Part shown: positions 9,100 through 24,680 of the stretch, in pieces
How the letters are laid out: the number at the start of each line of letters is the position of its first letter
Position numbering within the stretch: the stretch's first letter is position 1
Source: Comamonadaceae bacterium
GTDB lineage: Bacteria; Pseudomonadota; Gammaproteobacteria; Burkholderiales; Burkholderiaceae_C
NCBI GenBank assembly: GCA_947453645.1
Contig: CANGHG010000007.1
Span: forward strand, 1 to 33,025
Direction of reading: 5' to 3'
Length of the DNA: 33,025 nucleotides
The notes under the pieces: model-generated
Told to the model about the DNA's origin: nothing
Database searches by the model: none
The model's input: only the letters and a program-made list of their open reading frames with translations
Translations under genes and position numbers: made by a program

Positions 9100-10664
9100 G
9101 CCGACTCTACCGTGGTGCCTTCATTGTTTGGATTGTGTTGCGCTTCGGCCTGGACGAACTGGTGCTCTCGGGCTTCAAACAACCCTGGCTGAAAACCCTG
9201 AGCCGTGTCCTCACCGTGGGCCGCAATTTATCCGCCCCACGAGGTCAGCGCTTGCGTCAAGCCTTGGAGCACTTGGGGCCTATTTTTGTCAAGCTCGGTC
9301 AGGTTCTGTCCACCCGCCGTGACTTGTTGCCCAGTGACATCGCTGATGAATTGGCCAAGTTGCAAGACCGGGTGCCGCCGTTTTCCTCGGAGGTGGCTGT
9401 GGCCACCATTGAGCGAGCCTTGGGTCGCAGCATTGACCAGGTGTTCAGCGAATTTGACCGCACGCCTGTGGCCAGTGCATCCATAGCTCAGGTCCATTTC
9501 GCCACACTGCGCAATGGCAAAGGCCATTTGCGCGAAGTAGCGGTGAAGGTATTGCGACCAGGCATGTTGAATGTGATCGACAAAGATCTGCAACTCATGC
9601 ACACCATGGCGCGTTGGCTGGACCGCTTGTCTTCAGACGGCAAGCGCTTGAAGCCCCGTGAAGTGGTCGCCGAGTTTGACAAGTACCTGCATGACGAACT
9701 CGATTTGGTGCGAGAAGCATCGAATGCCACCCAGTTGCGCCGCAACATGGAAGGCTTGAACCTGGTGTTGATTCCAGAGATGGTCTGGGAATACTGCCAC
9801 CAAGAGGTCTTGGTGATGCAGCGCATGCACGGTCTGCCCATCAGTCAAGTGGAGGGTTTGCGCAAAGCTGGCGTGGACATTCCCAAGCTCGCTAGAGATG
9901 GCGTGACCATCTTTTTCACCCAGGTGTTTCGTGATGGTTTTTTCCATGCCGATATGCACCCTGGCAACATCCAAGTGAGTGTGGCACCCGACACCTTTGG
10001 TCAGTATGTGTCGCTGGATTTCGGCATTGTGGGCACCCTCACCGAGTTTGACAAAGAGTACTTGGCGCAAAACTTCACGGCTTTTTTCAGGCGCGATTAC
10101 AAGCGCGTGGCCGAGTTGCATATTGAGTCGGGTTGGGTGCCTGCGCACACCCGGGTGGATGAACTGGAGTCAGCCATTCGCTCGGTGTGCGAGCCCTATT
10201 TCGACAGGCCGCTGAAAGAAATTTCGCTGGGCATGGTGCTCATGCGCTTGTTCCAAACTTCCAGACGCTTTCAGGTGGAGATTCAACCGCAGTTGGTCTT
10301 GTTGCAAAAAACCTTGCTCAATATCGAGGGCCTGGGTCGCGAACTCGACCCCGATTTGGACTTGTGGAGCACGGCCAAACCCTTCTTGGAACAATGGATG
10401 TTGGAGCAGGTGGGGCCGCAACGCCTGTGGCATCAACTCAAGGTGGAAGCGCCGCGTTTGGCCAAAATGCTGCCCGAATTACCCCGCTTGGTGCATGCCT
10501 TTTTGCAGCGTGACCACGAGAGCGAACGCAAGCAACTCATCGAGTTGCTCAACGCGCAACGCAAAACCAATCAAACCTTGCAAACCATCTTGCTGTTGTC
10601 GTTGGGCTTTTTTGCGGGCATCGTCATCACCGCTATGCTGGGCTTTTGGAGCCTGGTCAGCTGA
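9096..10664 (+). CDS. ubiB: Ubiquinone biosynthesis protein kinase-like UbiB
   Basis: UbiB is a membrane-anchored atypical kinase-like ATPase (ADCK/COQ8 family) needed for ubiquinone synthesis, probably by extracting or presenting lipid intermediates. The 522-residue product has the family's normal length. Signature residues are the KxGQ motif at 66-69 (KLGQ), the ATP-binding lysine K151 in AVKVLRPG, the catalytic-loop DMHPGN (D286, N291) and the metal-binding DFG at 308-310. Two C-terminal transmembrane helices follow (about 492-520), with [17 protein letters not shown] visible. The ATG overlaps the ubiJ stop by four bases. Only two bases separate its stop from the stop of the convergent permease gene, so any terminator must lie inside the opposing coding sequence. 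Confidence 0.96.
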
Positions 10665-10666
10665 TC

Positions 10667-11494
10667 TCAAGGCAATGGTTTGAGTGTCAAGCGCCGTGCT
10701 TGCCTGGCGGTGTGAACACCGTAAATCACCACCGCCAAACTCACCACGGTCATCAACAAGGTGGCTGCCGCATATATGGACGGGTTCACACCACGTCGGG
10801 CGTAGCTGAAGATGACTTGAGGCAGTGTGGTCACGCCTGGCCCGGATAAAAATTCAGACACCACCACATCGTCAAAAGACAAGGTGAAGGTGAGCAACCA
10901 AGCGGCCACCAAGGCTTGCGACATATTGGGCAAGGTGATCAAGAAAAAAACCTGGAAGGGGCGGCACCCTAAATCGAGCGCCGCTTCTTCAATCGAGCGG
11001 TCCATCTCTTTCAAACGCGATTGAATCACCACACTGGCATAAGCCATGCCCAATAGCGCGTGGCCCAACACGATGGTCAAGGCACCGCGCCCTGGCCAAC
11101 CCAAGACCCGCTCCATGCCCACAAACAGCAGCAGCAAGGACAAGCCAATGATGACCTCTGGCATGACCAGGGGAGAACTCAGCATGGCATTGAACAAGGT
11201 GCGCCCTTTGAACTTGCCAAAGCGGATCAAGGCAAAAGCAGCCAAGGTCGCGAGTACCGTGGCCAAACTGGCGCTCATGAGGGCCACATTCAAAGACAGG
11301 GTGAAGCCTTCCACCAAACGGCTGTCGTTCCACAGCGCTTGGTACCAGCACAATGAAAAACCAGTGAACTCACTGTCTTGACGGGTGCTGTTGAACGAGA
11401 AAGTGATGAGAAAAAAAAGCGGCATGTAAAAAAAGACAAACACCGCTGCCAGCCACCATTTGCCAATGTGTCGACGCCATCCTTGCGCTTGCAT
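10667..11494 (-). CDS. Spermidine/putrescine-type ABC transporter permease (PotC/PotI-like)
   Basis: This is the second inner-membrane permease subunit of a polyamine-type importer. From the ATG at 11494 it has 275 residues (MQAQGWRRHIGKWWLAAVFVFFYMPLFF...), with about six hydrophobic helices. The cytoplasmic EAA loop that docks on the ATPase is seen as EEAALDLGCRPFQVFFLITLP. A longer in-frame reading from 11629 would lie inside the upstream permease gene and lacks the family N-terminus, so I reject it. Its start overlaps the stop of the partner permease by one base (TGATG). No ATPase gene follows; ubiB converges from the other side. Substrate is assigned by family resemblance only. Confidence 0.9.
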   Translation of the reverse strand: MQAQGWRRHIGKWWLAAVFVFFYMPLFFLITFSFNSTRQDSEFTGFSLCWYQALWNDSRLVEGFTLSLNVALMSASLATVLATLAAFALIRFGKFKGRTLFNAMLSSPLVMPEVIIGLSLLLLFVGMERVLGWPGRGALTIVLGHALLGMAYASVVIQSRLKEMDRSIEEAALDLGCRPFQVFFLITLPNMSQALVAAWLLTFTLSFDDVVVSEFLSGPGVTTLPQVIFSYARRGVNPSIYAAATLLMTVVSLAVVIYGVHTARQARRLTLKPLP

Positions 11495-12426
11495 CAGACC
11501 ATCTCCTGCTCGACTTTGCGCGCAAGTCGCTGGTTGAACCAAGCCAGTGGCAACACCACACCGACGATCATGACCACTGACAAGGCACTGGCGCGAGGCC
11601 AGTTGTTGCTGCTGAACATTTCGTCCCAAACCACTCGGCCAATCATCAGGTTATCTGCGCCGCCCAAGAGGGATGGAATGACAAACTCACCCAAGCAAGG
11701 GATGAACACCAAAATGGACCCCGCCACAATGCCCGAGCGACTCAAGGGCACGGTGATCAGCCAAAAGCTTTTCCAAGGCGTGGCACCCAAGTCTTGCGCA
11801 GCCTCGAGCAATCGATCGTCCAGTTTCACCAGGTTGGCGTAAAGGGGCAGCACCATGAAAGGCAGGTAGACATAGGTCATGCCCACCAACATGGAAACGT
11901 CGTTGTAGAGCAATTGCAAAGGTTCTGGGGTGAGCCCCAAAAAAATCAGCGCGTTGTTGATGATGCCTTGGTCGGCCAACAAACCTTTCCATGCATAGAC
12001 GCGCAACAAGAAAGACGTCCAAAAGGGGAGCATGACCATCAAGAGCAACAGGGGTCGCACACGCGGCTCGCTGCGAGCCAAAAAATAGGCAAAGGGATAG
12101 CCCACAAACAAGCACAACACAGTGGTCCAGAAGGCGTATTTGATTGACAAACCATAGGACTCAATGTAGAGCGTGTCACCCCAACCCGTTTCGGGGTCGA
12201 GCAACAGGGATAGATAGTGGGAGAGTTTGAGATGCAAGGACCAATGTCCTGCATCGTGTTGAATCAGGGGGGCAAAGGGATTCAAACCCTCACCCATGTC
12301 GGTCACGCTGATGCGCAACAAAATGAAAAAGGGGACGGCAAAAAACAACAGCAACCAAAACCACGGGATACCCAGCACAAGCGCCCGTCCGCGCTTGTGC
12401 ATGAGTTGTCGGAACAAGTCCTTCAC
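11494..12426 (-). CDS. Spermidine/putrescine-type ABC transporter permease (PotB/PotH-like)
   Basis: This 310-residue protein is the first permease of the importer. A basic N-terminus leads into about six transmembrane helices, the first at about 18-40 (LGIPWFWLLLFFAVPFFILL). A periplasmic loop carries the LSHYLSLLLDPETGWGDTLY region, and the ATPase-docking EAA loop reads EAAQDLGATPWKSFWLITVPL. The start codon is GTG at 12426, overlapping the stop of the binding-protein gene by four bases (GTGA), so translation is probably coupled. Length and motifs fit PotB/PotH, with putrescine or spermidine as likely cargo. Confidence 0.91.
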   Translation of the reverse strand: MKDLFRQLMHKRGRALVLGIPWFWLLLFFAVPFFILLRISVTDMGEGLNPFAPLIQHDAGHWSLHLKLSHYLSLLLDPETGWGDTLYIESYGLSIKYAFWTTVLCLFVGYPFAYFLARSEPRVRPLLLLMVMLPFWTSFLLRVYAWKGLLADQGIINNALIFLGLTPEPLQLLYNDVSMLVGMTYVYLPFMVLPLYANLVKLDDRLLEAAQDLGATPWKSFWLITVPLSRSGIVAGSILVFIPCLGEFVIPSLLGGADNLMIGRVVWDEMFSSNNWPRASALSVVMIVGVVLPLAWFNQRLARKVEQEMV

Positions 12427-13556
12427 TTACCTTTTTTGAAGCTGGTGTAAACCGCAGTCATCGATTCACGTGCGGCATTGCCCAGGGCTGCTGGCGGCAC
12501 CATCAAGCCCAAGTTGCCTTCATCAGGAAAGACGGCTTTATTCTGAGCGGTTTCAGGTTCCACGTTCGCCAAGCTGGCTTTGTTGGCTGTGGGGTAACCC
12601 AGTTCATTGGTCAAAGCGGCAGAGACTTCTGGCTTCAAGAAGTAGTTGATGAAGGCCATGGCGTTGTTGGGGTGCTTGGCATCTGCAGGCACGGCCAGGG
12701 TGTCAAAGAAAATCAAACCACCTGTTTTGGGCAACAAGGCCTCAATTTCTTGACCGCTTTTGTTCTCTTTGGCGCGTTTGGCTGCGATGTTGATGTCGCC
12801 AGCCCAACCCAGTGCCACGCAAGCTTTGCCACCTGCCAGGTCGTCGATCATGGTGCTAGAGAACAAGCGAATGTCTTTGCGCACTTTGGCCAACATCTCA
12901 CCAGCTGCTTTGTGGTCAGCAGCGTCTTCGGAGTAAGCGTTCTTGCCGATGTAGTGCAGGGCGGGTGGCAAGATTTCGGTGGGTGAATCCAGGTAAGCGA
13001 TGCCACAAGACTTCAGCTTCGCGGTGTAAGTGGGGTTGAACACCAAGTCCCAGGCGTTGTCGGGCATGGGGGTGTTGCCCAGTGCTTTGGCGACCTTGGC
13101 TTTGTTGATGCCCACGGTGGTGAAGCTCCAAGCCCATGGCAATACATGCTCGTTGCCCGCATCAACGCCGACGAGTTTTTTCATCAAGTCAGCGTCGAGG
13201 TTTTTGTAATTCGGGATTTGTGACTTGTCGAGTTTCTTCAGCAATCCTGCTTCAATTTGCGCTTTCACAAACACCGAGCCTGGCACCACGATGTCGAAGC
13301 CTGAATTGCCCGCCACCAGTTTGGCTTGCAGGGCTTCATTATTTTCAAATGTTTGGTAGTTGACTTTGATGCCAGTTTCTTTTTCAAAGTTTGTAATCAT
13401 GTCTTGGGCCACATAATCGGGCCAGTTATAGACATTAAGTACCTTTTCTTCTGCGTTGGCGGCTGCTGCAGGTGCAGCGGCCTTGGGCTCTTCTTTTTTT
13501 CCGCAGGCTGCAACAGCAAGCGAAGCCATGACAACAAGTAAAAGACGTTTATTCAT
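12423..13556 (-). CDS. Polyamine-type ABC transporter substrate-binding lipoprotein (PotD/PotF-like)
   Basis: This periplasmic binding protein captures the substrate and delivers it to the two permeases encoded just downstream. The 377-residue product starts at the ATG at 13556 with MNKRLLLVVMASLAVAAC: a lipoprotein signal peptide with the lipobox VAAC and acylation at C18. The mature protein begins with a charged, Ala-rich linker, then EKVLNVYNWPDYVAQDM, typical of PotD/PotF. Later features such as FEKETGIKVNYQTFENNEALQAKL and ALGWAGDI fit the same family. An upstream in-frame extension to 13691 would bury the signal peptide and is rejected. It is first in a three-gene unit and diverges from fmdB. 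Confidence 0.93.
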   Translation of the reverse strand: MNKRLLLVVMASLAVAACGKKEEPKAAAPAAAANAEEKVLNVYNWPDYVAQDMITNFEKETGIKVNYQTFENNEALQAKLVAGNSGFDIVVPGSVFVKAQIEAGLLKKLDKSQIPNYKNLDADLMKKLVGVDAGNEHVLPWAWSFTTVGINKAKVAKALGNTPMPDNAWDLVFNPTYTAKLKSCGIAYLDSPTEILPPALHYIGKNAYSEDAADHKAAGEMLAKVRKDIRLFSSTMIDDLAGGKACVALGWAGDINIAAKRAKENKSGQEIEALLPKTGGLIFFDTLAVPADAKHPNNAMAFINYFLKPEVSAALTNELGYPTANKASLANVEPETAQNKAVFPDEGNLGLMVPPAALGNAARESMTAVYTSFKKGK

Positions 13557-13730
13557 GATGGCAAAAACTCCAAAATCAATGTGTGTTGAACCAGGGTGGA
13601 AACGCTTGGAAGAGCGCCAGGGGCGTAGTATAGGGACAGAAGCCTTGACAGCTGGGCCTTTGACAGGCTCGAAGAGATAAAAAGCATACAATCTACGGCT
13701 TTGTGCGGTCTACTGAACAGCGAAAACACC
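13557..13730. promoter_or_regulatory. Divergent intergenic region between the polyamine importer and fmdB-aspS operons
   Basis: These 174 bases must hold the promoters of both divergent operons. On the plus strand a TTGACA lies at 13660-13665 and a TACAAT at 13687-13692, but the spacing of 21 bases is longer than the optimal 17. On the minus strand a TATACT hexamer (13632 to 13627) lies about 70 bases before the lipoprotein start, with no clear -35 partner. I see no operator palindrome or riboswitch structure. Confidence 0.35.
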
Positions 13731-14051
13731 ATGCCAATTTATGCCTATAAATGCGGGTCTTGCGGATTCGCAAAAGATCAACTTCAAAAAATATCCGACC
13801 CCGTTCTCACCGATTGCCCCGCTTGCGGTCAATCCACCTTCACCAAGCAAATAACCGCTGCGGGCTTTCAGCTGAAAGGCTCTGGTTGGTATGCCACCGA
13901 TTTCAAGGGTGGAGCCAGCAGCTCGCCTGCACCAAGCAGCGACGCCAGCGCGGCAACACCTGCGGCCAGCACAGGCGCTTCCTCAGACACGCCAGCTACA
14001 ACAGCCACAGCTGGAACTGGCGGATGTGCTCCTTCTTGCGCCTGCCACTGA
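13731..14051 (+). CDS. FmdB-family zinc ribbon protein
   Basis: The 106-residue product starts MPIYAYKC and has a CxxC...CxxC zinc ribbon (C8, C11, C29, C32), the FmdB family pattern; FmdB was first described as a putative regulator of formamidase/amidase genes. After about residue 60 it becomes a low-complexity Ser/Ala/Thr/Pro tail and ends in a cysteine-rich GGCAPSCACH, which could bind metal. The gene leads the operon with the DUF502 gene (7-base gap) and aspS, an arrangement I recognise from other betaproteobacteria. Its molecular function is unknown. Confidence 0.88.
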   Translation: MPIYAYKCGSCGFAKDQLQKISDPVLTDCPACGQSTFTKQITAAGFQLKGSGWYATDFKGGASSSPAPSSDASAATPAASTGASSDTPATTATAGTGGCAPSCACH

Positions 14052-14058
14052 ACACACC

Positions 14059-14703
14059 ATGAATTTGCGCAAATACATTTTGGCCGGCTTGTTGGTGTGG
14101 CTCCCCTTGGCCATCACTTTGTGGGTGCTGAGTTGGTTGGTAGGGGCCATGGATGGCATTTTTGCCAATGTGTTGTATGGCCTGGGCAGCTTATTGCCAC
14201 AAGCTTTCAACGACTCTTTTGCCCATTTGCAAAGCATTCGCGGATTGGGTGTGGTGCTTGTTTTTTTGGTATTGGTCATCACGGGAGCCTTGGCTTCCAA
14301 TGTGGCAGGGCGTTGGATGGTCAAGCAATGGGACAAATTGTTCACGCATATTCCCATCGTCAAGTCCATCTACACCAGTGTCAAAAAAGTCTCTGACACC
14401 TTGTTTTCCAGCAATGGCAATGCATTTCGCAAAGCACTGCTGATTCAATACCCGCGCCAAGGCGCATGGACCATCGCCTTTCAAACAGGTGCACCCTCTG
14501 GTGAAGTGGCTCAGCATGTGGGCGAAGGCTTCATCAGCGTCTATGTCCCAACCACACCGAATCCCACCAGTGGCTTCTTCTTGTTGGTTCCTATCGCCGA
14601 CGTGATTGAGCTTGAGATGAGCGTTGACGAAGCGTTGACGTATGTGATTTCCATGGGTGCTGTCTCTCCTGGCACCGCCGTCATTCAAGAAAAGAGAAAT
14701 TAA
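14059..14703 (+). CDS. DUF502 family membrane protein
   Basis: This 214-residue protein has an N-terminal hydrophobic helix at about 6-30 ([22 protein letters not shown]) and a second at about 65-88 ([18 protein letters not shown]). A conserved soluble region with [19 protein letters not shown] follows, then [23 protein letters not shown] and ISMGAVSP. These are hallmarks of DUF502, a bacterial family distantly like plant LCV/COV proteins, with no established biochemical role. The ATG at 14059 lies seven bases after the fmdB stop, and two bases separate its stop from aspS, so the three genes form one transcription unit. Confidence 0.9.
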
Positions 14704-14705
14704 AA

Positions 14706-16523
14706 ATGGCTATGCGCTCTCACTATTGCGGTCTTGTGACCGAAGCCCTGAATGGTCAAACCGTGAGCCTGTGCGGCTGGGTCAACCGTCGCCGTGACCA
14801 CGGCGGCGTCATCTTCATTGACTTGCGTGACCGCGAAGGCTATGTGCAGGTCGTTTGTGACCCAGATCGCCCCGACATGTTCAAAGTCGCTGAAGACGTT
14901 CGCAACGAATTCTGTGTGCAAATCAAAGGCTTGGTGCGCCCACGTCCTGACGGGACCAACAACGACAACCTCAAGAGCGGCAAAATTGAAGTGCTGTGCC
15001 ACGAGCTGACGGTCCTGAATGCTTCTGTCACGCCTCCATTCCAAATCGACGACGACAACCTGTCTGAAACCACGCGTTTGACTCACCGAGTGCTCGATTT
15101 GCGTCGCCCCTACATGCAAAACAACCTGATGCTTCGTTACAAAGTATCCATGGAAGTGCGCAAATATTTGGACGAAAACGGTTTTGTGGACATTGAAACC
15201 CCCATGCTCACCAAGAGCACACCTGAAGGTGCTCGTGATTACCTGGTCCCCAGCCGTGTGCACGATGGTCACTTCTTTGCCTTGCCTCAGTCCCCCCAAT
15301 TGTTCAAACAGTTGTTGATGGTGGCGGGTTTTGATCGCTACTACCAAATCACCAAGTGCTTCCGCGACGAAGACTTGCGCGCTGACCGACAGCCCGAATT
15401 CACGCAGATCGATATTGAAACCTCGTTCCTGAGTGAGGAAGAAATCCGCGACATGTTTCAAGGCATGATCAAGCGTGTGTTTCAAAAAACCATTGGTGTC
15501 GACCTGGGCGAATTCCCGGTCATGTCCTATCAAGATGCGATGCACATCTATGGCTCGGACAAGCCTGATTTGCGTGTCAAGTTGCAATTCGCTGAATTGA
15601 CAGATGTCATGGGCGATGTGGACTTCAAGGTGTTCTCCGGTGCTGCCAATATGAAAGGCGGTCGCGTGGTGGCCCTGCGCGTTCCTCACGGTTCGGTCGA
15701 GGGCGGTGGCATCAGCCGTGGCGAGATTGACGCCTACACCGAGTTCGTCAAGATCTACGGCGCCAAAGGATTGGCCTACATCCGGGTCAACGACCTGTCC
15801 AAAGGCCGTGACGGCTTGCAGTCGCCCATCGTTAAAAACATACACGACGCAGCGCTAGCAGCCGTGCTGGAGCGCACAGGCGCGAAGGATGGCGACCTGA
15901 TCTTCTTCGGCGCTGACAAGGCCAAAATCGTCAACGACGCCATCGGTGCTTTGCGCAACAAAATTGGTCACAGCGAGTTCGGCAAGAAAAACGGCTTGTT
16001 TGAAGACCGTTGGGCGCCAATGTGGGTGGTCGACTTCCCCATGTTTGAATACGACGATGAGAGCCAGCGCTATACCGCGGTTCACCATCCCTTCACCGCG
16101 CCCAAAGACGGCCATGAAGACTGGATGGTCACCGCCCCCGAGAAATGCATCTCCAAAGGCTATGACATGGTCTTGAACGGCTGGGAAATGGGCGGCGGCT
16201 CGGTCCGTATCCACCGCGCCGACGTGCAACAAAAAGTGTTTGACGCTTTGAAAATCACACCAGAAGAGGCACAAGTCAAATTTGGTTTCTTGTTAGATGC
16301 GCTTCAGTATGGCGCGCCTCCCCACGGTGGCTTGGCCTTTGGCCTGGACCGCATCGTGACCTTGATGACAGGCGCCGAATCGATCCGCGACGTGATCGCC
16401 TTTCCCAAAACCCAACGCGCTCAGTGCTTGCTCACCCAGGCACCCTCCTTGGTCGATGAAAAGCAGCTGCGTGAATTGCATATTCGCTTGCGCAATTTAG
16501 AGGCAAAAACAGCCGCAAACTGA
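14706..16523 (+). CDS. aspS: Aspartyl-tRNA synthetase, probably non-discriminating (Asp/Asn)
   Basis: AspRS charges tRNA(Asp) with aspartate. The 605-residue product has the bacterial layout: N-terminal OB anticodon-binding domain (about 1-110), class II catalytic core with the inserted GAD domain, and C-terminal extension. Motif 2 is [14 protein letters not shown] from F219 and motif 3 is [10 protein letters not shown] with R549. The OB domain reads NRRRDHGG with His at position 32; the E. coli enzyme has Leu there, while the non-discriminating Pseudomonas aeruginosa enzyme has the matching His31. This suggests that the enzyme also makes Asp-tRNA(Asn) for GatCAB. A second in-frame ATG at 14712 (MRSHYCG) may be the true start. 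Confidence 0.96.
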
Positions 16524-16678
16524 AACTTCTCAAAAGCCATCATTGGTATTCAATTATGAAAATAATTCTTCATTTCTGAATACTTAGTTGTTTATATTTC
16601 ATTTTTATAAGTCCTTATAGATTATTGAGTCATCAAATATCTATATAAATGAATACTTTGCGGAAATAACATGGCCGC
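16524..16678 (+). promoter_or_regulatory. AT-rich promoter region of the tandem hybrid-kinase genes
   Basis: This 155-base stretch is far richer in A and T than the rest of the window and lies between aspS and the first kinase gene. A TATAAA element at 16644-16649 could be a -10; no convincing -35 sits 16 to 18 bases upstream. The nonamer TGAATACTT occurs twice, at 16577-16585 and 16650-16658, 73 bases apart, and could be a pair of binding sites or chance in AT-rich DNA. I see no clear terminator hairpin for aspS. Confidence 0.4.
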
Positions 16679-18439
16679 ATGTACAACCATTTAAATGACT
16701 TTTTGAGGACGTTTTCGAGTGCCTCAGAAGCAGATAAACGCAAACTGATTCGATTGGCCTTGTGCCTGTCGGCATTGGTCAACTGCAGTTTCACGGCCAC
16801 TTCCAATGTGGTGGCTGACTTGGGCCCAACCTACATCAGCACATTGTTGGCCTTTGTCAGTTTGTTGGTGTTGAGTTTTTTCAGCATCAGCCATCAGTTG
16901 CTTGTGCATGGTTTGTTGGGTGTGACCTTGGTCAGTGGCGTCAATATGGCCATGCAAAGTGGCGGTATTCATTCACCCACTTTGTTGTGGCTTGTATTCA
17001 CACCCAACTTGGCTTTGTTCTTCCTGACCCAATGGGCCACATTGGTTTGGGTGTTGAATGTGTTGTTGGCTTTGGGGGTGGTGGCCTACCTGTCATTTGA
17101 AAATTCGAGTCAGATTCAAGATGCGGCTTGGACCTATTCCAGCAGTTGGACTGCTGCCCATTTGATGGCCGCACAACTGTTTCTGATGTTGGTGCACTTG
17201 ATTTATGACACGCAATATAGGCAAAAAACCAAACGCATCAGCATCAGCATCGAGCGAATGAAAGAGGTCAAAAAACATTTGCAAATGACCGAGGCCTATA
17301 AAGATCGGTTCATTTCGACGGTCAGCGCCGATTTACGTTCACCCATGAATGCCATATTGGGATATAGCGATGTGCTGGCTGACATGACCCAGCACCAAAG
17401 CAGTTTGACTCAAACGGTGGAGCATATTCAAAACTCCATCAAACAGTTGCTGGAATTGACCAACAATATTTTGGACCATGCGCAATTGAATGAAGCAAAG
17501 TTGACTTTGAATTACAGGGCAGTGGATGTTCGTCGAATGATTGCAGCTGAATGGCCCGTGGAGCGATTCAAGGCAGATGTCGAGTTTGAAGTGAAGATTG
17601 ACAACAATGTGCCAGATTGGTTGTGGTGCGACCCGCAGCGATTGCAACAAATCGTGCATATTTTGGTGGCCAACGCTAAGAAATTCACCAACTCTGGCAA
17701 GGTTTGGCTGCACTGGTGTTACGAAGCACAACATTTGCGCGTTGATGTGAGAGACACAGGCATTGGTATCAGCGATGAAGTCAAGGCCTATATATTCAAG
17801 CGCTTTGACAAAGCGGATGAAGCCATCAATCGTCAATTCGGCGGCATTGGGCTGGGGTTGACCAATGCTTTGGAGTTGACCAAATTGTTTGGTGGCAATA
17901 TGGGCTTCAACAGTGAAGCGTTAAAGGGTTCGCATTTTTGGGTGAGCTTGCCCATCAAATCTTTCGACATCGCACCGGTTCACGCCATCCCAGATGACGA
18001 ACTGGTCACGATGAAGAATGGGCACATTTTGGTGGTGGATGATCAGCCTGTGAGCTTGATGGTCACCATGCAAATTCTCAGAAAGTTGCTGCCACAAGTG
18101 CAACTGAGTCATGCCACTAGCGGTGCACAAGCCTTGGAGCAACTGCGAAATGTGGATGTGGACTTGGTATTAATGGATGTGTTGATGCCACAAATGGATG
18201 GACCCACCACATGTCGAATGATTCGTTCAGTGTTGGATGTCCGCGCCCGCAAAATGCCCATCATCGGCTTGACGGCCAGTACCCACCCCAAAGACAGCCA
18301 ACGATGTTTTGATGCAGGCATGGACGACGTGATCATCAAACCGATAGAACCCAAGCATTTGATCCAAGTCATCTCCACCGAATTGCAACGCACAAAGCTT
18401 GCAGACAGTGACGACGAAAGAAACAAGGCGACTGCGTGA
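16679..18439 (+). CDS. Hybrid histidine kinase lacking the phosphoacceptor His (intact ATP domain, receiver)
   Basis: This 586-residue inner-membrane protein starts with about six transmembrane helices (about 22-175), including the GGIHSPTLLW loop near 95. A HisKA-like helix follows. Its H-box reads VSADLRSPMN instead of the usual SHELRTPMN, so the phosphoacceptor position is Ala (A217, codon GCC at 17327). The HATPase domain looks complete: N-box VANAKKFT with N332, G1 DTGIG from D359, F-box IFKRF, and G2 GGIGLGL at 388-394. A C-terminal receiver has the VVDD acidic pair, phospho-acceptor D500 in LMDVLMP, LTAS and IKP. It can therefore bind ATP but not autophosphorylate on the usual His. The stop overlaps the start of a paralogous kinase with the opposite defect. 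The signal sensed is unknown. Confidence 0.93.
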   Translation: MYNHLNDFLRTFSSASEADKRKLIRLALCLSALVNCSFTATSNVVADLGPTYISTLLAFVSLLVLSFFSISHQLLVHGLLGVTLVSGVNMAMQSGGIHSPTLLWLVFTPNLALFFLTQWATLVWVLNVLLALGVVAYLSFENSSQIQDAAWTYSSSWTAAHLMAAQLFLMLVHLIYDTQYRQKTKRISISIERMKEVKKHLQMTEAYKDRFISTVSADLRSPMNAILGYSDVLADMTQHQSSLTQTVEHIQNSIKQLLELTNNILDHAQLNEAKLTLNYRAVDVRRMIAAEWPVERFKADVEFEVKIDNNVPDWLWCDPQRLQQIVHILVANAKKFTNSGKVWLHWCYEAQHLRVDVRDTGIGISDEVKAYIFKRFDKADEAINRQFGGIGLGLTNALELTKLFGGNMGFNSEALKGSHFWVSLPIKSFDIAPVHAIPDDELVTMKNGHILVVDDQPVSLMVTMQILRKLLPQVQLSHATSGAQALEQLRNVDVDLVLMDVLMPQMDGPTTCRMIRSVLDVRARKMPIIGLTASTHPKDSQRCFDAGMDDVIIKPIEPKHLIQVISTELQRTKLADSDDERNKATA

Positions 18440-20262
18440 TGGCTCAGGTCCGAGATAACAAGATCAAACTCCAAAGCACCTCCGACCAATCGGAGCCTGT
18501 GGTCGATCAAAAACTCGTCACCTTGTCCAAGTCGGAGCGAAATCAAATCTTTGGATTTCCTTGGGCCATTGGCTTGATCGTGCTATTCATGTCTTTCTAT
18601 GCACCTTCAACATCCGTGCGATGGGAATCATCAGTGGTGGGCATGCTGTTGTTGCTCACGCCATTGTTTTATTTGGCGGGCATGTCACTCAAGTGGATAG
18701 TGCACGTGGCCGTAGGCATCTGCACATTGGGCATCATTGGTGTGTCCATGGAAACTGGCGGCATATATTCAGCACAAATTGTTTGGTTGATGTTGATCCC
18801 GGTTATGCCATTGCGCTTGGTATCGATCAAAGCTTCATTGGCTTGGTTGACCGTGAGTCTGCTGATACTGCTTGTCTTTGGCCAGATGGACCATCAGGAG
18901 TTGGTGGGCGACATGCACCAATCCTTTGGCAGCATGTCAACATGGACTTTTTTGCAACGCATTCTGTTGTGCGCCAGCATGCTGGTGTTGCCTTGGTATT
19001 ACGCCAAGACCTACCGTCAGTCGATAGCGGTCATGAGGCGATATAACAAAGTGATCCACCATAAAAAAATGGAATTGGTGCGTGAACAAGCCAATAAGAA
19101 ATTGTTCATCTCCAGGTTGAGTCATGAAATGCGCACGCCAATGAATGCAGTCGTTGGTTTTTCAAATTTGCTACAAGCGCAATCAGATCAATTTCCACAA
19201 GCTGCAGGCGTTGTCGACCATATTCAAACCACATCTCGACATTTGCTCGCCATCATCAACGGCATCATGGACTACACACAATTGATTGATGGTCAATTGA
19301 AAATCCGTCAGCAAGATGTTGAGTTAACAAGCCTTGTTCTACAAACATTTGACATGTTCAAAGACAGAGCCAGGAGCATGCAAATTGAATACACCTGTGA
19401 GTTGCAAGCAGGAGCACCCCAATGGATCAGAGCCGATGCGCAGCGGGTTGGTCAAATACTCATGAATTTTTTAGAGCTCGCATTGCAAAGAACGTCTGAA
19501 GGCTTTGTGCAGCTCAAGACTCAACACAGTGCTGAGTTGATCGTGTTCACAGTGCATGACTCTGGCACTCACCTGACAGATGATGAATTGCAGTTGTTGA
19601 ATTTACTTGAGATGAGTGCTCAAGACATGCCCGTGAATCATTTGAGCGGTACCGCGCTTGGTTTGAGCATGGCCAAAGCCTTGGCTCAAATGATGGGCGG
19701 CGATGTACTGGCCCAAAATCATTCGGGCCAGGGTTCGAGTTTGACTTTGAGATTGCCCCTGGAGGTGGTTCAGTCGGCCAAGTTGGATGGCATGGGTGGG
19801 CAGGAAGCAGGGGCAAACAGGCATATCAAAGAACTGGGTATCGAAATCTTGGTGGTTGACGACAATCCCGTCAACCGACTATTGGTTCAGCAAGTGATTC
19901 ATGCGCAATGGCCATTGGCCAAAGTCACTCAGGCTGACAATGGACAAAAAGCATTGACCAGACTCAGTGCTCAAAAATTTGATTTGGTGCTGATGGACAT
20001 GTTGATGCCAGAAATGGATGGCATTGAAGCTACCCAGTATGTTCGCCAAGATCCAACTTCCCCCAATCAATGGATCCCTGTGCTGGGTTTGACTGCCAAT
20101 ATCAGCACCGAAGACCATGTCCGTTGTTTGAGTGCTGGCATGAATGATGTGTTGCTCAAACCATTTGATCGGCAGGTGTTGGTCCAACGTGTTGAGCAGT
20201 TGTTATTGGCGTGTCCTGTGTTCACAACCAAATATGCTCGCTTGTTCAAAGCCAAAAGCTGA
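18439..20262 (+). CDS. Hybrid histidine kinase with intact H-box but degenerate ATP domain (receiver)
   Basis: This 607-residue paralogue of the preceding protein has a cytoplasmic N-terminal stretch of about 37 residues, about six transmembrane helices (with GGIYSAQIVW near 107), and a HisKA domain with a normal H-box LSHEMRTPMN (H229). The ATP-binding domain is degenerate: the N-box reads NFLELALQRT with Leu347 for the Mg-binding Asn; G1 reads DSGTH (D374, His378 for Gly); no F-box Phe pair is visible; and G2 reads GTALGL with Ala406 for Gly. The receiver is intact (VVDDNP, D520 in LMDMLMP, LTAN, LKP). It should be unable to autophosphorylate but able to accept phosphate from a partner. The ATG at 18439 shares a base with the upstream stop (TGATG), arguing for coupled synthesis. 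Confidence 0.92.
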   Translation: MAQVRDNKIKLQSTSDQSEPVVDQKLVTLSKSERNQIFGFPWAIGLIVLFMSFYAPSTSVRWESSVVGMLLLLTPLFYLAGMSLKWIVHVAVGICTLGIIGVSMETGGIYSAQIVWLMLIPVMPLRLVSIKASLAWLTVSLLILLVFGQMDHQELVGDMHQSFGSMSTWTFLQRILLCASMLVLPWYYAKTYRQSIAVMRRYNKVIHHKKMELVREQANKKLFISRLSHEMRTPMNAVVGFSNLLQAQSDQFPQAAGVVDHIQTTSRHLLAIINGIMDYTQLIDGQLKIRQQDVELTSLVLQTFDMFKDRARSMQIEYTCELQAGAPQWIRADAQRVGQILMNFLELALQRTSEGFVQLKTQHSAELIVFTVHDSGTHLTDDELQLLNLLEMSAQDMPVNHLSGTALGLSMAKALAQMMGGDVLAQNHSGQGSSLTLRLPLEVVQSAKLDGMGGQEAGANRHIKELGIEILVVDDNPVNRLLVQQVIHAQWPLAKVTQADNGQKALTRLSAQKFDLVLMDMLMPEMDGIEATQYVRQDPTSPNQWIPVLGLTANISTEDHVRCLSAGMNDVLLKPFDRQVLVQRVEQLLLACPVFTTKYARLFKAKS

Positions 20263-20376
20263 GCCTCAGTGCTTCGCGGATGGCCCCGATACAGTCCTGG
20301 GAATTCTTTATCGCCCCAAAGTTACTTGAAGAAGGGCTGTTAGCATGCGATTCTCGAAATCCAAGTGGTTTGAACC

Positions 20377-21078
20377 ATGCCTCAAAACAGCAAAGATCAA
20401 GGCGTACCCGTCTCTGTGAAAATTCGCGAACGGATTTTGGCGGCCAAGAAACGCTTTCATGCCAACGACAACATTGCCGAGTTTTTGCAACCAGGTGAGT
20501 TGGATGACTTGCTTGACGAAGTGGAAGTCAAGATGCGCGGGGTGTTGGAAAGCTTGGTGATAGACACCGATCACGATCACAACACCACCGACACAGCCAA
20601 ACGTGTGGCCAAGCTGTATTTGAAGGAAGTGTTCAATGGTCGCTATGTCAAAGCACCTGAAATCACCGAATTCCCGAATGCAGAGCAGCTCAATGAACTC
20701 ATGATCGTGGGGCCAATCACGGTTCGCAGCGCTTGCAGCCACCATTTTTGTCCTGTGATTGGCAAAATTTGGATTGGCATTTTGCCCAATCAACACACCA
20801 ATGTCATTGGTTTATCCAAGTACGCCAGATTGGCTGAGTGGGTCATGGGTCGTCCCCAAATTCAAGAAGAAGCCGTGGTGCAACTCGCCGATTTGATTCA
20901 AACCAAAACCAAACCCGATGGCCTTGCCTTGGTGATGGAAGCCACACATTACTGCATGGCTTGGCGTGGCGTGAAAGACATGGACAGCCGCATGATCAAC
21001 TCGGTCATGCGCGGAGCGTTCCTCAAAGACCCCAATTTGCGCCGTGAATTTTTAGCGCTGATTCCACAAAAGCATTGA
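20377..21078 (+). CDS. folE: GTP cyclohydrolase I
   Basis: FolE converts GTP to 7,8-dihydroneopterin triphosphate, the entry point to folate and also the source of queuosine precursors. The 233-residue product has the expected zinc site: C120 and H123 in SACSHHFCPVIGK and C193 in HYCMAWRGVKDMDS. GLSKYARLAEWVMGRPQIQEE corresponds to the family's GLSKLAR...RLQVQER region. The usual CEHH motif is CSHH here, with Ser121 in place of Glu; I recall this variant from other betaproteobacterial FolE proteins. The preceding 114 bases hold no clear promoter or ribosome binding site. The downstream DUF429 gene starts 22 bases later. Confidence 0.92.
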   Translation: MPQNSKDQGVPVSVKIRERILAAKKRFHANDNIAEFLQPGELDDLLDEVEVKMRGVLESLVIDTDHDHNTTDTAKRVAKLYLKEVFNGRYVKAPEITEFPNAEQLNELMIVGPITVRSACSHHFCPVIGKIWIGILPNQHTNVIGLSKYARLAEWVMGRPQIQEEAVVQLADLIQTKTKPDGLALVMEATHYCMAWRGVKDMDSRMINSVMRGAFLKDPNLRREFLALIPQKH

Positions 21079-21100
21079 ACTGCGGCTGAGCTTGTCTGTC

Positions 21101-21919
21101 ATGCAGTTGCTTGGATGCGATTTCAGCAGCAGTCCCTCCAAGCGAAAGGCCATTGTTTTGGCTTGGGGGCATTGGCACCAAGAACGTGTGATGCTCAGTC
21201 GACTTGAACGCTGTATGTCTTTGCCAGAGTTCAGTGCCAAATTGCAAACACCTGGGCTTTGGGTTGGTGGTTTCGATTTGCCATTTGGGTTGCCGCGTGA
21301 ATTGGTCATGCAATTGAACTGGCCCAGCCATTGGGTGGCTTGCATGCAGCACTATGCCCAATTATCTCGAGACTCTATTCGCGACCAGTTCGCTGCCTTT
21401 TGCAATGCCCGCCCAGTGGGAGGCAAATTCGCGCACAGGGCAACAGATGGACCAGCAGGCTCAAGTCCTTCCATGAAATGGGTCAACCCCCCAGTGGCCT
21501 TCATGATGCATGCGGGTGTGCCGTTGATGTTGGAAGCCAATTTGCATTTCCCAGGTTTGCATGATGGCGACAGATCGCGCGTGGCTTTGGAAGCCTACCC
21601 AGGTTTGTGGGCTCGTCGTGTATTGGGGGCTCGCAGTTACAAGAGCGACTCGGCAGCCAAGCAAACAGCAGAGCGATTCATTGCTCGAAAAGACCTGCTG
21701 CATGCCTTGGTTTGGGGTCATGATGACTTGCCAGTGCGGCTCCAACTCAGCTCCGCACAGCAAGATGCTGTGTTGGCAGATGCCAGTGGAGACAGCTTGG
21801 ATGCCGTGGTGTGCATGATGCAAGCTGCTTGGGCTGAGCAGCAGCACGCGCAAGGTCATCCCCTGTATGGGTTGCCCGACAACATGGACCCCCTTGAGGG
21901 TTGGATTCTCAACGCATGA
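21101..21919 (+). CDS. DUF429 family protein
   Basis: This 272-residue protein begins LLGCDFSSSPSKRKAIV, the acidic first strand typical of DUF429, a family thought to adopt an RNase H-like fold. Further markers are GGFDLPFGLPRELV near 68-81, the LEAYPGLWARRVLGARSYKSD stretch near 165-185, and GDSLDAVVCMMQAAW near the C-terminus, where an Asp would complete a metal site. The substrate and role are unknown. I use the ATG at 21101; a TTG at 21092 is in frame. The stop overlaps the acetyltransferase start by four bases (ATGA), so the two are coupled. Confidence 0.85.
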   Translation: MQLLGCDFSSSPSKRKAIVLAWGHWHQERVMLSRLERCMSLPEFSAKLQTPGLWVGGFDLPFGLPRELVMQLNWPSHWVACMQHYAQLSRDSIRDQFAAFCNARPVGGKFAHRATDGPAGSSPSMKWVNPPVAFMMHAGVPLMLEANLHFPGLHDGDRSRVALEAYPGLWARRVLGARSYKSDSAAKQTAERFIARKDLLHALVWGHDDLPVRLQLSSAQQDAVLADASGDSLDAVVCMMQAAWAEQQHAQGHPLYGLPDNMDPLEGWILNA

Positions 21920-22491
21920 GTGATGTTTTTTCTCAGCTGATAGAAACGCCACGCATGTGGTTGCGTTGCCCACTCCCAGGGGACGGTGAGGCGGTGTATG
22001 CAGGGGTTTTGGAAACCTTGGTGCAATTGCGGCAATGGCCCGAGTCTTTGCCATGGGCGCAGAACGAGCAGTCCCCACGCTTGTCAGAAGATTACTGCCA
22101 AACTTGTTACGCAGCTTGGGTCATGCGGGTGACTTGGCCTATGTTGATGATTGACAAAGCCAGCGATCAATTTGCAGGCACTGTGGGGTTTCATCACATC
22201 GATTGGACAAACCAACGCTGGGAATTGGGGTATTGGTGCCGACTCGCATTTCAGGGACAAGGTCGCATGACCGAGGCTGTGAAAGCCTTGACCGATGCGG
22301 CCACCAAGGCTTGTCCAGGCATGCAGCTGACCTCACGGGTGGATGAGCGAAACAAGCCAAGCATCAAGGTGCTTGAACGCGCTGGCTATTCGATGGTCAA
22401 AGAAGAGAAGCAGGGTGTTTCAGGTGACCAACACCGACTGGTGCGCCATTACGCCTGGGGACGAGCGCTGCACACCGGGCAATCGGCTTGA
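21916..22491 (+). CDS. GNAT family N-acetyltransferase (RimJ/RimL type)
   Basis: This 191-residue protein has the ETPRMWLRCPLPGDGEAV start typical of RimJ/RimL-like acetyltransferases, which use acetyl-CoA to modify protein N-termini or small molecules. The core has FAGTVGFHHIDW, ELGYWCRLAFQGQGRMTEAV (the CoA-binding region, with QGQGRM in place of the common RGKGYA), and RVDERNKPSIKVLERAGY, which matches the usual VxxxNxxSxxVxEKxGF. The target is unknown. The last 43 bases overlap, tail to tail, the 3' end of the E1-like gene on the other strand. Confidence 0.87.
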   Translation: MSDVFSQLIETPRMWLRCPLPGDGEAVYAGVLETLVQLRQWPESLPWAQNEQSPRLSEDYCQTCYAAWVMRVTWPMLMIDKASDQFAGTVGFHHIDWTNQRWELGYWCRLAFQGQGRMTEAVKALTDAATKACPGMQLTSRVDERNKPSIKVLERAGYSMVKEEKQGVSGDQHRLVRHYAWGRALHTGQSA

Positions 22492-23207
22492 CGTTGCATT
22501 CGCATCTCAGTCCAACTCAAGTCACGGCCATCCATCATCTGTAGACGACCTGCCAGCGAAGTGCCCAAACCTGCCAGAAGTTTCAAGGCTTCTGCCGCTT
22601 GCAAGCTGCCAATCACGCCGACCAATGGCGCGAGCACGCCCATGGTGGCGCAGCTCACCTCTTCAGGTGCGTGATCGGGTGGAAATACACAGGCATAGCA
22701 AGGTGAAAGCGGGTTGCGCACATCGTAAGTGGTGAGTTGACCATCCAAACGAATGACCGCGCCACTGACCAAGGGCACTTGGTGAGTCACGCAGGCCGCA
22801 TTCACAGCATGACGGGTTTGAAAGTTGTCAGAACAGTCGAGCACCACATCGGCTTGCGACACGAGTTGCATGAGCATGTCGGCATCGGCGCGGTGAGGCA
22901 CCAATTGCACTTGGCACTCTGGGTTGAGAGCCAGCATGGCGGTGCGTGCTGAAGCTACTTTGGCTTGTCCGATGCGCTCGGTGGTGTGGGCAATTTGACG
23001 TTGCAAATTGGTCAGGTCCACGGTGTCGTGGTCTACCAAGGTAATGCGCCCCACGCCAGACGCCGCCAAGTACATGGCCGCTGGGCTACCCAAACCGCCC
23101 GCACCCAAGATGAGTGCGTGGCTGTTCAAAAGCTGGGTTTGTCCCTCGTCACCCAGTTCATTGAGCAGGATGTGGCGCGAGTAGCGCAGCAGCTGGGCGT
23201 CATTCAC
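22449..23207 (-). CDS. MoeB/ThiF-type adenylyltransferase (E1-like)
   Basis: This enzyme adenylates the C-terminal glycine of a small sulfur-carrier protein (MoaD or ThiS) for molybdopterin or thiamine synthesis. The 252-residue product has the nucleotide-binding GAGGLGS at 35-41, the conserved DLTNLQRQ at 64-71, and a zinc site of two CxxC pairs (C170/C173 and C243/C246). C186 lies in EEVSCATMGVL. No rhodanese domain is fused. Sequence alone does not separate MoeB from ThiF; I see neither moaD nor thiS nearby. The second zinc pair and the stop are encoded within the 43-base overlap with the convergent acetyltransferase gene. It starts three bases after the protease gene stop. Confidence 0.92.
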   Translation of the reverse strand: MNDAQLLRYSRHILLNELGDEGQTQLLNSHALILGAGGLGSPAAMYLAASGVGRITLVDHDTVDLTNLQRQIAHTTERIGQAKVASARTAMLALNPECQVQLVPHRADADMLMQLVSQADVVLDCSDNFQTRHAVNAACVTHQVPLVSGAVIRLDGQLTTYDVRNPLSPCYACVFPPDHAPEEVSCATMGVLAPLVGVIGSLQAAEALKLLAGLGTSLAGRLQMMDGRDLSWTEMRMQRQADCPVCSARPQA

Positions 23208-23210
23208 GCC

Positions 23211-24659
23211 TTACTGTTCCTTTTTCTCAGCTGGGCGTTCAGCCTGGGTTTTGCTGACCTTCACAGGTTGGTTTTTCAGGTGGTTGAGGGCTTGCTGCAA
23301 TTGGAAGTCATCTGCACTGCCAAACTCTGGTGATTTGCGATCGGCCACAGGCTTTTTGGATTCTTCTTCCAACCGCTTCAAAGCTTCTTCGCGTGCTTTC
23401 TCACGGGCGGTGTCTTTCACTTCAGCGCCTTGGCCACTGTTGAGGTGCTTTTCCAAATCGGCTTCACGGGTCCGCAATGCGGCATAAGGACTGCCTTCGG
23501 CGGTGTCATCGACCAGCAGCTCGGGCACGATGCCTTTGGCTTGAATCGAGCGTCCGCTGGGGGTGTAGTAGCGCGCCGTGGTGATTTTCAAGGCCGTGTC
23601 GGCACCGAGTTGACGAACGGTTTGAACCGAGCCTTTGCCAAAGGTTTGACTGCCCATGAGCACGGCACGCTTGTGATCTTGCAAAGCACCCGCCACGATT
23701 TCGCTCGCAGAGGCTGAACCTTCATTGACCAAGACCACCAAGGGAATTTTCTTGAACAAACCTTTGGTGTTTTTGTCCAAAACTGCTACCGTGTCTTGAC
23801 CACCGCGGCGCAAATAAAACTCGGGCGCGGCTTTGAAGGTGAACTTGCTTTCTTCCAGCTGGCCGTTGGTAGAGACCACGGTCACGTTGTCGGGCAAGAA
23901 GACGGCAGAAATGGCCACCGCCGCATCCAACAAACCGCCTGGGTCGTTGCGCAAATCGAGCACCAAGCCCTTCATTTTCGGATCTTGTTTGTAGAGCTCC
24001 TCCAGCTTGCGGGTCAAGTCGTCCACGGTGCGCTCTTGGAATTGGCTCACGCGAATCCAGCCGAAGCCGTTCTCGATCATCTTGCTTTTCACACTGACGG
24101 TCTTGATTTCCTCACGGACGATGGTGACCGGGAAGGTGCGGTTTTCGTCCTTGCGGAAGATGGTGAGTACCACCTGGGTTTTGGGCTCGCCACGCATGCG
24201 TTTGACCGCTTCATTGAGTGACATGCCTTTGACCGCGGTGTCATCCACCTTGGTGATCAAGTCGCCAGGCTTGAGTCCAGCGCGGTCGGCGGGTGAACCC
24301 TCGATGGGCGAGACCACCTTGACCAGGCCTTCTTCTTGAGAAATTTCGATGCCCACACCGACAAATTTGCCTGTGGTGCCTTCGCGGAATTCTTTGTAGG
24401 ATTTTTTGTCGAAGTACTGGGAATGAGGGTCAAGGCTGGCCACCATGCCTGCGATGGCGTCGTTGATGAGTTTTTTCTCGTCCACGGGTTCCACATAATC
24501 GCTCTTGACCATGCTGAAAACAGCGGCCAATTGCTGCAACTCTTCCAAGGGCAGGGGCGCCATGTTGGCGCGGGCCACGGTTTGGAGAGAGAACGTGGTG
24601 AGTGCGCCCGTGAGTGCGCCAACGGTCAACCAACCTGCAATTTTGAGTTTGTGGCCCAT
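23211..24659 (-). CDS. C-terminal processing protease (S41, CtpA/Prc-like)
   Basis: This 482-residue serine protease of family S41 degrades or trims envelope proteins from their C-termini. It has an N-terminal signal or anchor (about 7-30) and a PDZ domain at about 95-165 with GVGIEI and AGLKPGDLI. The S41 catalytic domain contains LRNDPGGLL (237-244), the nucleophile motif GSASASEI (314-321) and the catalytic lysine K342 in FGKGSVQT. A charged, helical C-terminal tail (about 400-482) is rich in Lys, Glu and Arg. An AAGG ribosome binding site precedes the ATG. It lies between gpmA and the E1-like gene on the same strand, and the latter is probably co-transcribed. Confidence 0.94.
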   Translation of the reverse strand: MGHKLKIAGWLTVGALTGALTTFSLQTVARANMAPLPLEELQQLAAVFSMVKSDYVEPVDEKKLINDAIAGMVASLDPHSQYFDKKSYKEFREGTTGKFVGVGIEISQEEGLVKVVSPIEGSPADRAGLKPGDLITKVDDTAVKGMSLNEAVKRMRGEPKTQVVLTIFRKDENRTFPVTIVREEIKTVSVKSKMIENGFGWIRVSQFQERTVDDLTRKLEELYKQDPKMKGLVLDLRNDPGGLLDAAVAISAVFLPDNVTVVSTNGQLEESKFTFKAAPEFYLRRGGQDTVAVLDKNTKGLFKKIPLVVLVNEGSASASEIVAGALQDHKRAVLMGSQTFGKGSVQTVRQLGADTALKITTARYYTPSGRSIQAKGIVPELLVDDTAEGSPYAALRTREADLEKHLNSGQGAEVKDTAREKAREEALKRLEEESKKPVADRKSPEFGSADDFQLQQALNHLKNQPVKVSKTQAERPAEKKEQ

Positions 24660-24680
24660 GTGTACCTTGTTAATGTAGCT

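Follow-up and report, generated by a model that had tools for sequence, protein, structure and literature searches.

A putative split membrane hybrid histidine kinase encoded by two adjacent genes of a Comamonadaceae bacterium

Introduction

Can the two working halves of a histidine kinase be parted between neighbouring genes, each of which still encodes a full-length membrane protein? Histidine kinases are taught as homodimers, and the question is raised by two adjacent genes, here called HK1 and HK2, in a stretch of 33,025 nucleotides from a Comamonadaceae bacterium (GCA_947453645.1, contig CANGHG010000007.1, positions 1 to 33,025). This whole stretch, referred to below as the window, comes from a 1.59 Mb draft genome with a completeness of 69%. 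We suggest that a membrane-bound hybrid histidine kinase is probably split between HK1 and HK2 as its complementary subunits, and that HK1 would phosphorylate His229 of HK2.

Results

The HK1 gene (16679..18439) encodes a membrane hybrid histidine kinase of 586 amino acids, and the HK2 gene, from its ATG at 18439 to 20262, encodes another of 607. Both genes, with all features described within them, are on the plus strand. One base is common to the HK1 stop and the HK2 start in a TGATG overlap (18437..18441), and this overlap and both sets of gene coordinates agree with a first-pass annotation of the same DNA. HK1 and HK2 alike consist of the Pfam domains HisKA, HATPase_c and Response_reg, behind N-terminal parts that appear membrane-like by hydropathy. 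These are the only domains above the Pfam cut-offs; neither the CheA-type P1 domain, which resembles a histidine phosphotransfer (HPt) domain, nor a CheW-binding domain was found at that level. The HATPase_c match scores 74.3 bits in HK1, as against 51.1 bits in HK2. MASE11, considered as the identity of the HK2 N-terminus, was rejected with a Pfam score below the cut-off; neither it nor the other hits under that level correspond to CheA domains.

HK1 has lost the phospho-acceptor and kept the ATP-binding domain. In its HisKA domain, the dimerization and histidine phosphotransfer (DHp) region (17300..17491, residues 208-271), the phospho-acceptor position is occupied by Ala217 (codon 17327..17329), and by Glu in the orthologues from two other species, G015 and G099. 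The H-box Glu and Thr are also gone, position 218 being Asp and position 221 being Ser, Gly and Ser across the trio, and thus HK1 has lost the whole acceptor and phosphatase motif. The His, Glu218 and Thr221 are each present in 100% of 60 other first genes in an alignment of tandem pairs. In DivL-type pseudokinases Tyr replaces the phospho-acceptor His; no HK1 of the trio has Tyr at that position. His267 is fixed in the trio HK1, where other first genes have Phe, Ile or Tyr. As a candidate relocated acceptor it would, by helix arithmetic, stand about two turns off the normal site. The HATPase_c domain (17630..17959, residues 318-427) is intact at N332, DTGIG (359-363) and GGIGLGL (388-394), and the N-box Asn, DTG(I/V)G and GIGLGL are found in all three orthologues. 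In the receiver (18026..18373, residues 450-565), Asp500 is present in the window, as is its equivalent in G015; in G099 it is replaced by Asn (VVLMNGWM). The G099 HK1 (L041:269-1867) is also about 50 residues shorter in its membrane part.

HK2 has the opposite pattern. Its HisKA/DHp domain (19096..19284, residues 220-282) retains His229 (codon 19123..19125), the predicted acceptor of phosphate from HK1, with HExxT in all three orthologues, and the stretch RLSHEMRTPMNAV is identical in the window, G015 and G099. Its receiver (19846..20196, residues 470-586, with Asp520) is strongly conserved. The HATPase_c domain (19435..19764, residues 333-442) is degenerate, with Leu347 for the N-box Asn and with DSGTH and SGTALGL in place of the usual boxes. 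Across the trio the N-box Asn position is Leu, His and His, the following Lys and Phe have become Gln and Arg, and elements of the F-box and G2-box are missing from all three orthologues, the window having His378 in the G1-box and Ala406 in the G2-box. Among 61 other second genes, N347, K350, F351 and G406 make up 100% of the readable residues; this set and that of the 60 first genes take in three genomes with altered pairs (G019, G034 and G091). No protein of the pair thus unites an acceptor His with a complete ATP site, HK1 having no His and HK2 having lost its N-, F- and G2-boxes. The first-pass annotation had named the same residues in HK1 (A217, N332, the DTGIG from D359, and GGIGLGL at 388-394) and in HK2 (H229, L347, H378 and A406), each of which is where it was said to be, and the two alignments bear out that such defects are atypical for the family.

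AlphaFold models of the two proteins have the same mean predicted local distance difference test score, 65. In the HK2 model the ATP domain is still folded, with block means of 82-86 outside residues 381-410. Confidence in the lid is low for either protein (48-67 in HK2; 55-57 at residues 371-390 of HK1), and hence the models cannot tell whether an ATP site is live or dead.

Every species in which we found the pair, namely that of the window, G015 (L023) and G099 (L041), has the complementary split, at the same site between aspS and folE. Whole-protein identity among the three orthologous pairs is 43-53%, all six open reading frames (ORFs) are open, and sequencing error as the origin of the defects is ruled out by the recurrence of the same split. 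The window is collinear with G015 from 9849 to 24669, with gaps inside HK2. Both defects and the adjacency of the genes are conserved, a point that the first-pass annotation had proposed to test, and neither orthologue has the normal HK1 H-box or normal HK2 ATP domain that would have spoken against it.

The distribution of the pair is narrow. At the thresholds used, 77 of the 84 genomes of the genus yielded aspS and 78 yielded folE, and we examined 54 loci spanning the aspS-folE gap or its start, some of them shortened by contig ends. HK1- and HK2-like genes occur at two of these (G015 and G099); the other 52 have no ORF of at least 100 amino acids that matches HK1 or HK2 at E <= 1e-8. In 16 genomes aspS and folE adjoin without room for the pair, and a few genomes are covered neither by the gap loci nor by this adjacency. 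A profile search with HK1 across the 84 genomes, scoring up to 16 candidates in each, added no orthologue to these; the matches that follow in rank are paralogues. Against 399 genomes of the family, at E <= 1e-130 and with the top three candidates per genome scored, the profile matched only in the window's own genome. The HK1 alignment found no relative in a viral collection, all 3286 matching records of a plasmid collection were below 60% identity, and a scan of genome contigs with P0001 brought up six matches, all of them distant kinases or fragments.

We compared the domains of the trio with those of 49 intact tandem pairs, from which L148, with a changed H-box, and L151, of another class, had been left out. 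Forty-two of these pairs enter 161 comparisons at 43-58% whole identity; the comparisons share pairs and hence are not independent. In the controls, percent identity in HK1 is 75.9 for the DHp domain, 61.5 +/- 3.9 for the catalytic and ATP-binding (CA) domain and 57.1 +/- 5.2 for the receiver, and in HK2 79.9, 69.5 +/- 3.2 and 68.3 +/- 6.1, respectively. The control CA difference (HK1 minus HK2) is -7.9 +/- 3.1, with a maximum of 0.0, and an earlier control set of 51 pairs and 152 comparisons gave the same result for it. In the trio, the difference is +30.4 (window-G015), +25.0 (window-G099) and +30.1 (G015-G099): HK1 CA identity is 64.5 in each comparison, and that of HK2 is 34.2, 39.5 and 34.4. 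The DHp domains of the trio are at control level in both proteins (71.9-79.7, mean 75.5, in HK1 and 71.4-73.0 in HK2), and HK2 receiver identity is 71.8-72.6. HK1 receiver identity is 56.4 between the window and G015, like the controls, and falls to 37.1 and 34.2 only in the comparisons with G099; decay of the HK1 receiver is therefore limited to G099. A general loss of constraint on this receiver was considered and rejected, the trio mean of 42.2 being lowered by G099 alone.

Nonsynonymous distances (dN) fall in the same order as identity: 0.11-0.20 for DHp, 0.20-0.24 for the HK2 receiver, 0.27-0.29 for HK1 CA and 0.60-0.67 for HK2 CA. Synonymous distances (dS) were saturated in most domain comparisons, and hence only dN was read. 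Because domain identities and dN differ in this pattern, HK1 appears to be kept as an ATP-binding and dimerization domain, and HK2 as an acceptor, a dimerization domain and a receiver.

HK1 and HK2 belong to a larger family of tandem kinases. With HK1 as query, the window's own genome gave 14 matches, of which several are neighbours on one strand; in three other complete tandem pairs there (C62, C12 and C35), both proteins have their H-, N-, G1- and G2-boxes intact. HK2 profile matches at E <= 1e-70 occur in 59 of the 84 genomes, with about 15 candidates scored per genome. We read the kinases in 86 loci, including the window, which gave 152 proteins; this census is a sample from the best matches and not a full count. 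Both tandem members were readable at 64 loci, a number that leaves out single kinases, three fusions and L079. Fifty-eight pairs are intact in both members, three are the complementary pairs, and G019, G034 and G091 contribute one altered pair each. In G019 (L129) an ATP-dead first member that keeps its His precedes an intact second member. In G034 (L134) the first member is likewise ATP-dead with its His, and the second-member H-box reads SHALRTLMN, with Glu changed to Ala and Pro to Leu. In G091 (C4) the sole change is in the H-box Glu of the second member. A further five pairs, which come from four species in a different genus of the family (g111) and were read by eye, are intact without exception. 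In total, both members are intact in 63 of the 69 readable pairs, and in none has the same function been lost from both; a pair in G069 (L200), cut by a contig end, is uncounted. At L079:3734-5488 (G014) the tandem first gene is interrupted by a stop and lies in two frames.

All 64 census pairs lie on one strand, with spacings of -169 to +63 bp when genes are taken from the first possible start. For six single members of the paired classes in the census (L018, L105, L130, L138, L140 and L143), the contig runs on for only 0-635 bp on the side where the partner would lie, and four in a later set (G070, G008, G024 and G001) lie within 130-739 bp of a contig end. The census has 12 other single kinases: ten come from a different class, whose H-boxes read, for example, MVSHDMRTPLN, and two (L020 and L021) are other kinases. 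Loss of one partner without the other, which the first-pass annotation had offered as a way to be proved wrong, thus did not show itself in the genus sample, where the only unpaired members of the two classes sit at contig ends. Single relatives in other genera (G321, G390 and G136) lie away from contig ends and are not assigned to either paired class. At L187, in another genus of the family (G368), four hybrid kinases stand in a row in the order HK1-HK2-HK1-HK2.

In a tree built without the diagnostic motif columns, one branch with a support of 96 sets 66 of the 67 first genes apart from all 66 second genes. The one first gene that does not follow belongs to L151, a tandem of another class that falls as a whole on the second-gene side. 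HK1 and HK2 are therefore old paralogous classes, whose pairs duplicated as units before one pair split its functions. The suggestion that they are recent duplicates is not borne out. Nor is the proposal that each copy lost one half after duplication supported in that form: the duplication predates the losses, and most pairs have kept both halves in both members. With motif columns omitted, the trio HK2 is placed next to two fusions and another class, made up mostly of single kinases (support 86); with the ATP domain omitted, it falls with the same pair class as HK1 (support 40).

At three loci HK1 and HK2 form a single open frame. That of L127 (G003; L127:632-3757) is 1041 amino acids long, with two HisKA, two HATPase_c and one receiver; that of L133 (G029; L133:615-3857) has 1080 amino acids; and that of L139 (G027; L139:1-3014) has at least 1004, up to a contig edge. 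The first receiver is absent or shortened in the fusions, that of L133 breaking off near its Asp by eye. These natural fusions argue for physical association of the members of a pair. G034, with a dead HK1 ATP domain and intact HExxT alongside an ATP-intact HK2 with a damaged H-box, is a partial mirror image of the window pair, and it suggests that phosphate could also pass in the reverse direction.

The nearest solved structures include ShkA, GacS, RetS and the RetS-GacS DHp co-complex 7n0e, and a second search with HK1 by VIA-align matched mostly receiver domains. HPt matches were found in 64 of the 84 genomes at E <= 0.001 (53 of them over the cut-off), one each in G015 and G099; most frames are about 115-190 amino acids, and some HPt domains lie within larger proteins. 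Stand-alone HPt-like frames are present at L163:1441-1818, L165:1435-1791 and L162:1444-1833. At all three of these loci an smc-like frame adjoins the HPt-like frame, and at two of them an aminotransferase-like frame does so, both named by eye.

HK1 and HK2 are the two plus-strand genes that occupy the aspS-folE gap (window 16524-20376). Upstream of HK1 is aspS, a class II tRNA synthetase gene (14706-16523), and downstream of HK2 is folE, for GTP cyclohydrolase I (20377-21078). By identity, aspS is nearest to G032 (97%), while folE is nearer to G015 (90%) and G099 (89%) than to G032 (85%), which suggests that the pair may have travelled with folE by recombination, as judged from these two genes. 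The length of the gap varies across the genus from a few bases to more than 20 kb, and the gap looks like a site of variable gene content. A 275-amino-acid frame at 21092-21919 has no Pfam match and is 75% identical to the frame in the same place in G015. Promoter and terminator scans of the region gave no clear excess over shuffled sequences.

Discussion

The sequences themselves show the split, its occurrence in three species, the constraint on each domain, the family and the fused versions. Retained functions that are complementary and adjacent, together with ATP-domain decay in HK2 only, fit a division of labour, and we believe that HK1 and HK2 very probably function only as a pair. Several known systems bear on this. 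In mixed dimers of EnvZ or NtrB, subunits without the His and subunits without ATP binding complement each other; those are laboratory mutants, whereas HK1 and HK2 are a natural, conserved pair. In Mycobacterium tuberculosis, Rv0601c and Rv0600c carry His and ATP parts separately; as generally described they are truncated, non-hybrid kinases, and this sets them apart from HK1 and HK2. The two are reported to cooperate with one regulator, TcrA (PMC9274095).

CheA3 and CheA4 of Rhodobacter sphaeroides offer a close parallel: ATP-binding and phospho-accepting roles are on two proteins, neither autophosphorylates alone, and the acceptor half doubles as a phosphatase (PMC3591291). As in that system, the acceptor His and the ATP site of HK1 and HK2 are on separate proteins, in a pair known from its sequence, and by this measure the two would fit the split histidine kinase kind, in three species. 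However, CheA3 and CheA4 are of the CheA class and lack whole domains, P1 being absent from CheA4 and P3 and P4 from CheA3, whereas HK1 and HK2 are full-length membrane HisKA hybrids that have kept all domains and lost residues and constraint. Judged by domain content, an estimated 1.7% of HisKA proteins could be both split and bifunctional (PMC3591291). Few natural histidine-kinase heterodimers have been reported, and the best known is inhibitory (PMC9491836, PMC5992135). A ChrS pseudokinase arose in laboratory evolution, and native ChrS-HrrS heterodimers appear in two-hybrid assays (PMC9491836). GacS and RetS of Pseudomonas form a hybrid-kinase heterodimer (PMC12189002, PMC5992135). Like HK1 and HK2, which would associate in a similar way, they are hybrid kinases, and they are among the closest solved structures to both of our proteins; unlike them, RetS inhibits its partner, and HK1 and HK2 are adjacent, co-conserved and each without what the other has. 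By analogy, the DHp co-complex 7n0e may serve as a precedent for hybrid-kinase heterodimers. In the titles and abstract openings of open-licence literature we found no natural, conserved, full-length hybrid-kinase pair with complementary defects. The view that a pair of this kind is undescribed thus goes uncontradicted there, although split histidine kinases as such are known from CheA3 and CheA4.

We propose that HK1 and HK2 would pair through their still-conserved DHp helices, a step consistent with the constraint retained on both DHp domains and with the fold matches to RetS, GacS and 7n0e. The ATP-binding domain of HK1 would then phosphorylate His229 of HK2 across the subunit interface, as the first-pass annotation held that it must. 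From His229, phosphate would pass to Asp520 of the HK2 receiver, an Asp kept in all three species; Asp500 of HK1 could also accept phosphate in the window and G015, though not in G099. What we infer are the formation of a heterodimer, the way in which phosphate flows, its course beyond Asp520 and the signal. After Asp520 the likely next acceptor is a stand-alone HPt protein, such as the candidate common HPt of the genus. HK1 would thus contribute ATP chemistry and a second membrane input, and HK2 would bring the acceptor His, the phosphatase motif HExxT and the receiver for the main output. Such a pair could have arisen by specialization within the tandem family, whose ordinary members are intact and probably already hetero-associated.

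Several observations weigh against this proposal. HK2 retains D374, S375 and G376 of the G1-box in all three orthologues, and therefore may still bind nucleotide weakly. The split pair is found in only three of the 84 genomes, and G032, the nearest genome by aspS, is without it at the aspS-folE site. The HK1 receiver is generally retained (56.4 between the window and G015 as against 57.1 in controls). Intact HK1 and HK2 paralogues in the same cells, in all three genomes, could supply either missing function, and neither the Pfam model nor the HPt of one relative picked out an HPt in the window's own genome, 69% complete.

The best surviving alternative, which we consider unlikely, is that each protein is a pseudokinase tuning intact paralogues in the manner of RetS or DivL, with neither needing the other. 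Those intact tandem pairs in all three genomes would provide its targets, sequence and fold matches include RetS and DivL, which are known modulators, and regulation of GacS by RetS is documented (PMC12189002). But independent pseudokinases leave unexplained why the retained functions should be complementary and adjacent in three species, why the HK1 ATP domain is conserved at the level of active controls, and why HK1-HK2 fusions exist. Less probable still is that HK2 is only a phosphatase or phosphotransfer station fed from elsewhere, with HK1 as a scaffold or non-phosphorylating controller: the HExxT stretch and the receiver rank with the best conserved regions of HK2, but a pure scaffold would have no need of the N-, G1- and G2-boxes that HK1 has kept, nor of an ATP-domain identity of 64.5 as against 61.5 in controls. 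That the pair is decaying by chance, its complementarity a coincidence, is very improbable; the patchy distribution and the G099 HK1, which is also without its receiver Asp and an N-terminal stretch, are what it would predict, but none of the six ORFs is interrupted, even though synonymous distances have reached saturation or come close to it, and the DHp domains, the HK1 ATP domain and the HK2 receiver are under strong constraint.

Returning to the split kinase that we prefer, a wider version of it, for which we would put the chances at about even, is that the heterodimer is the normal working form of the whole tandem family of membrane hybrid kinases in at least two genera. With both halves meeting in one dimer, selection would tolerate that either partner loses either half. 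The window pair would then be the fully specialized end point, G034 the reverse still under way and the fused double kinases a third outcome; sensor kinases that are obligate heterodimers would have evolved repeatedly in nature.

What the locus offers is a clean genetic split between adjacent membrane hybrid kinases, kept in three species, with intact, one-sided, partly mirror-image and fused relatives available for comparison. This makes testable the questions of natural heterodimeric sensor kinases, of the direction of phosphate across a dimer and of the insulation of paralogous kinases. Moreover, since modelling of bifunctional split kinases predicts switch-like responses (PMC3591291), the pair may also set a threshold.

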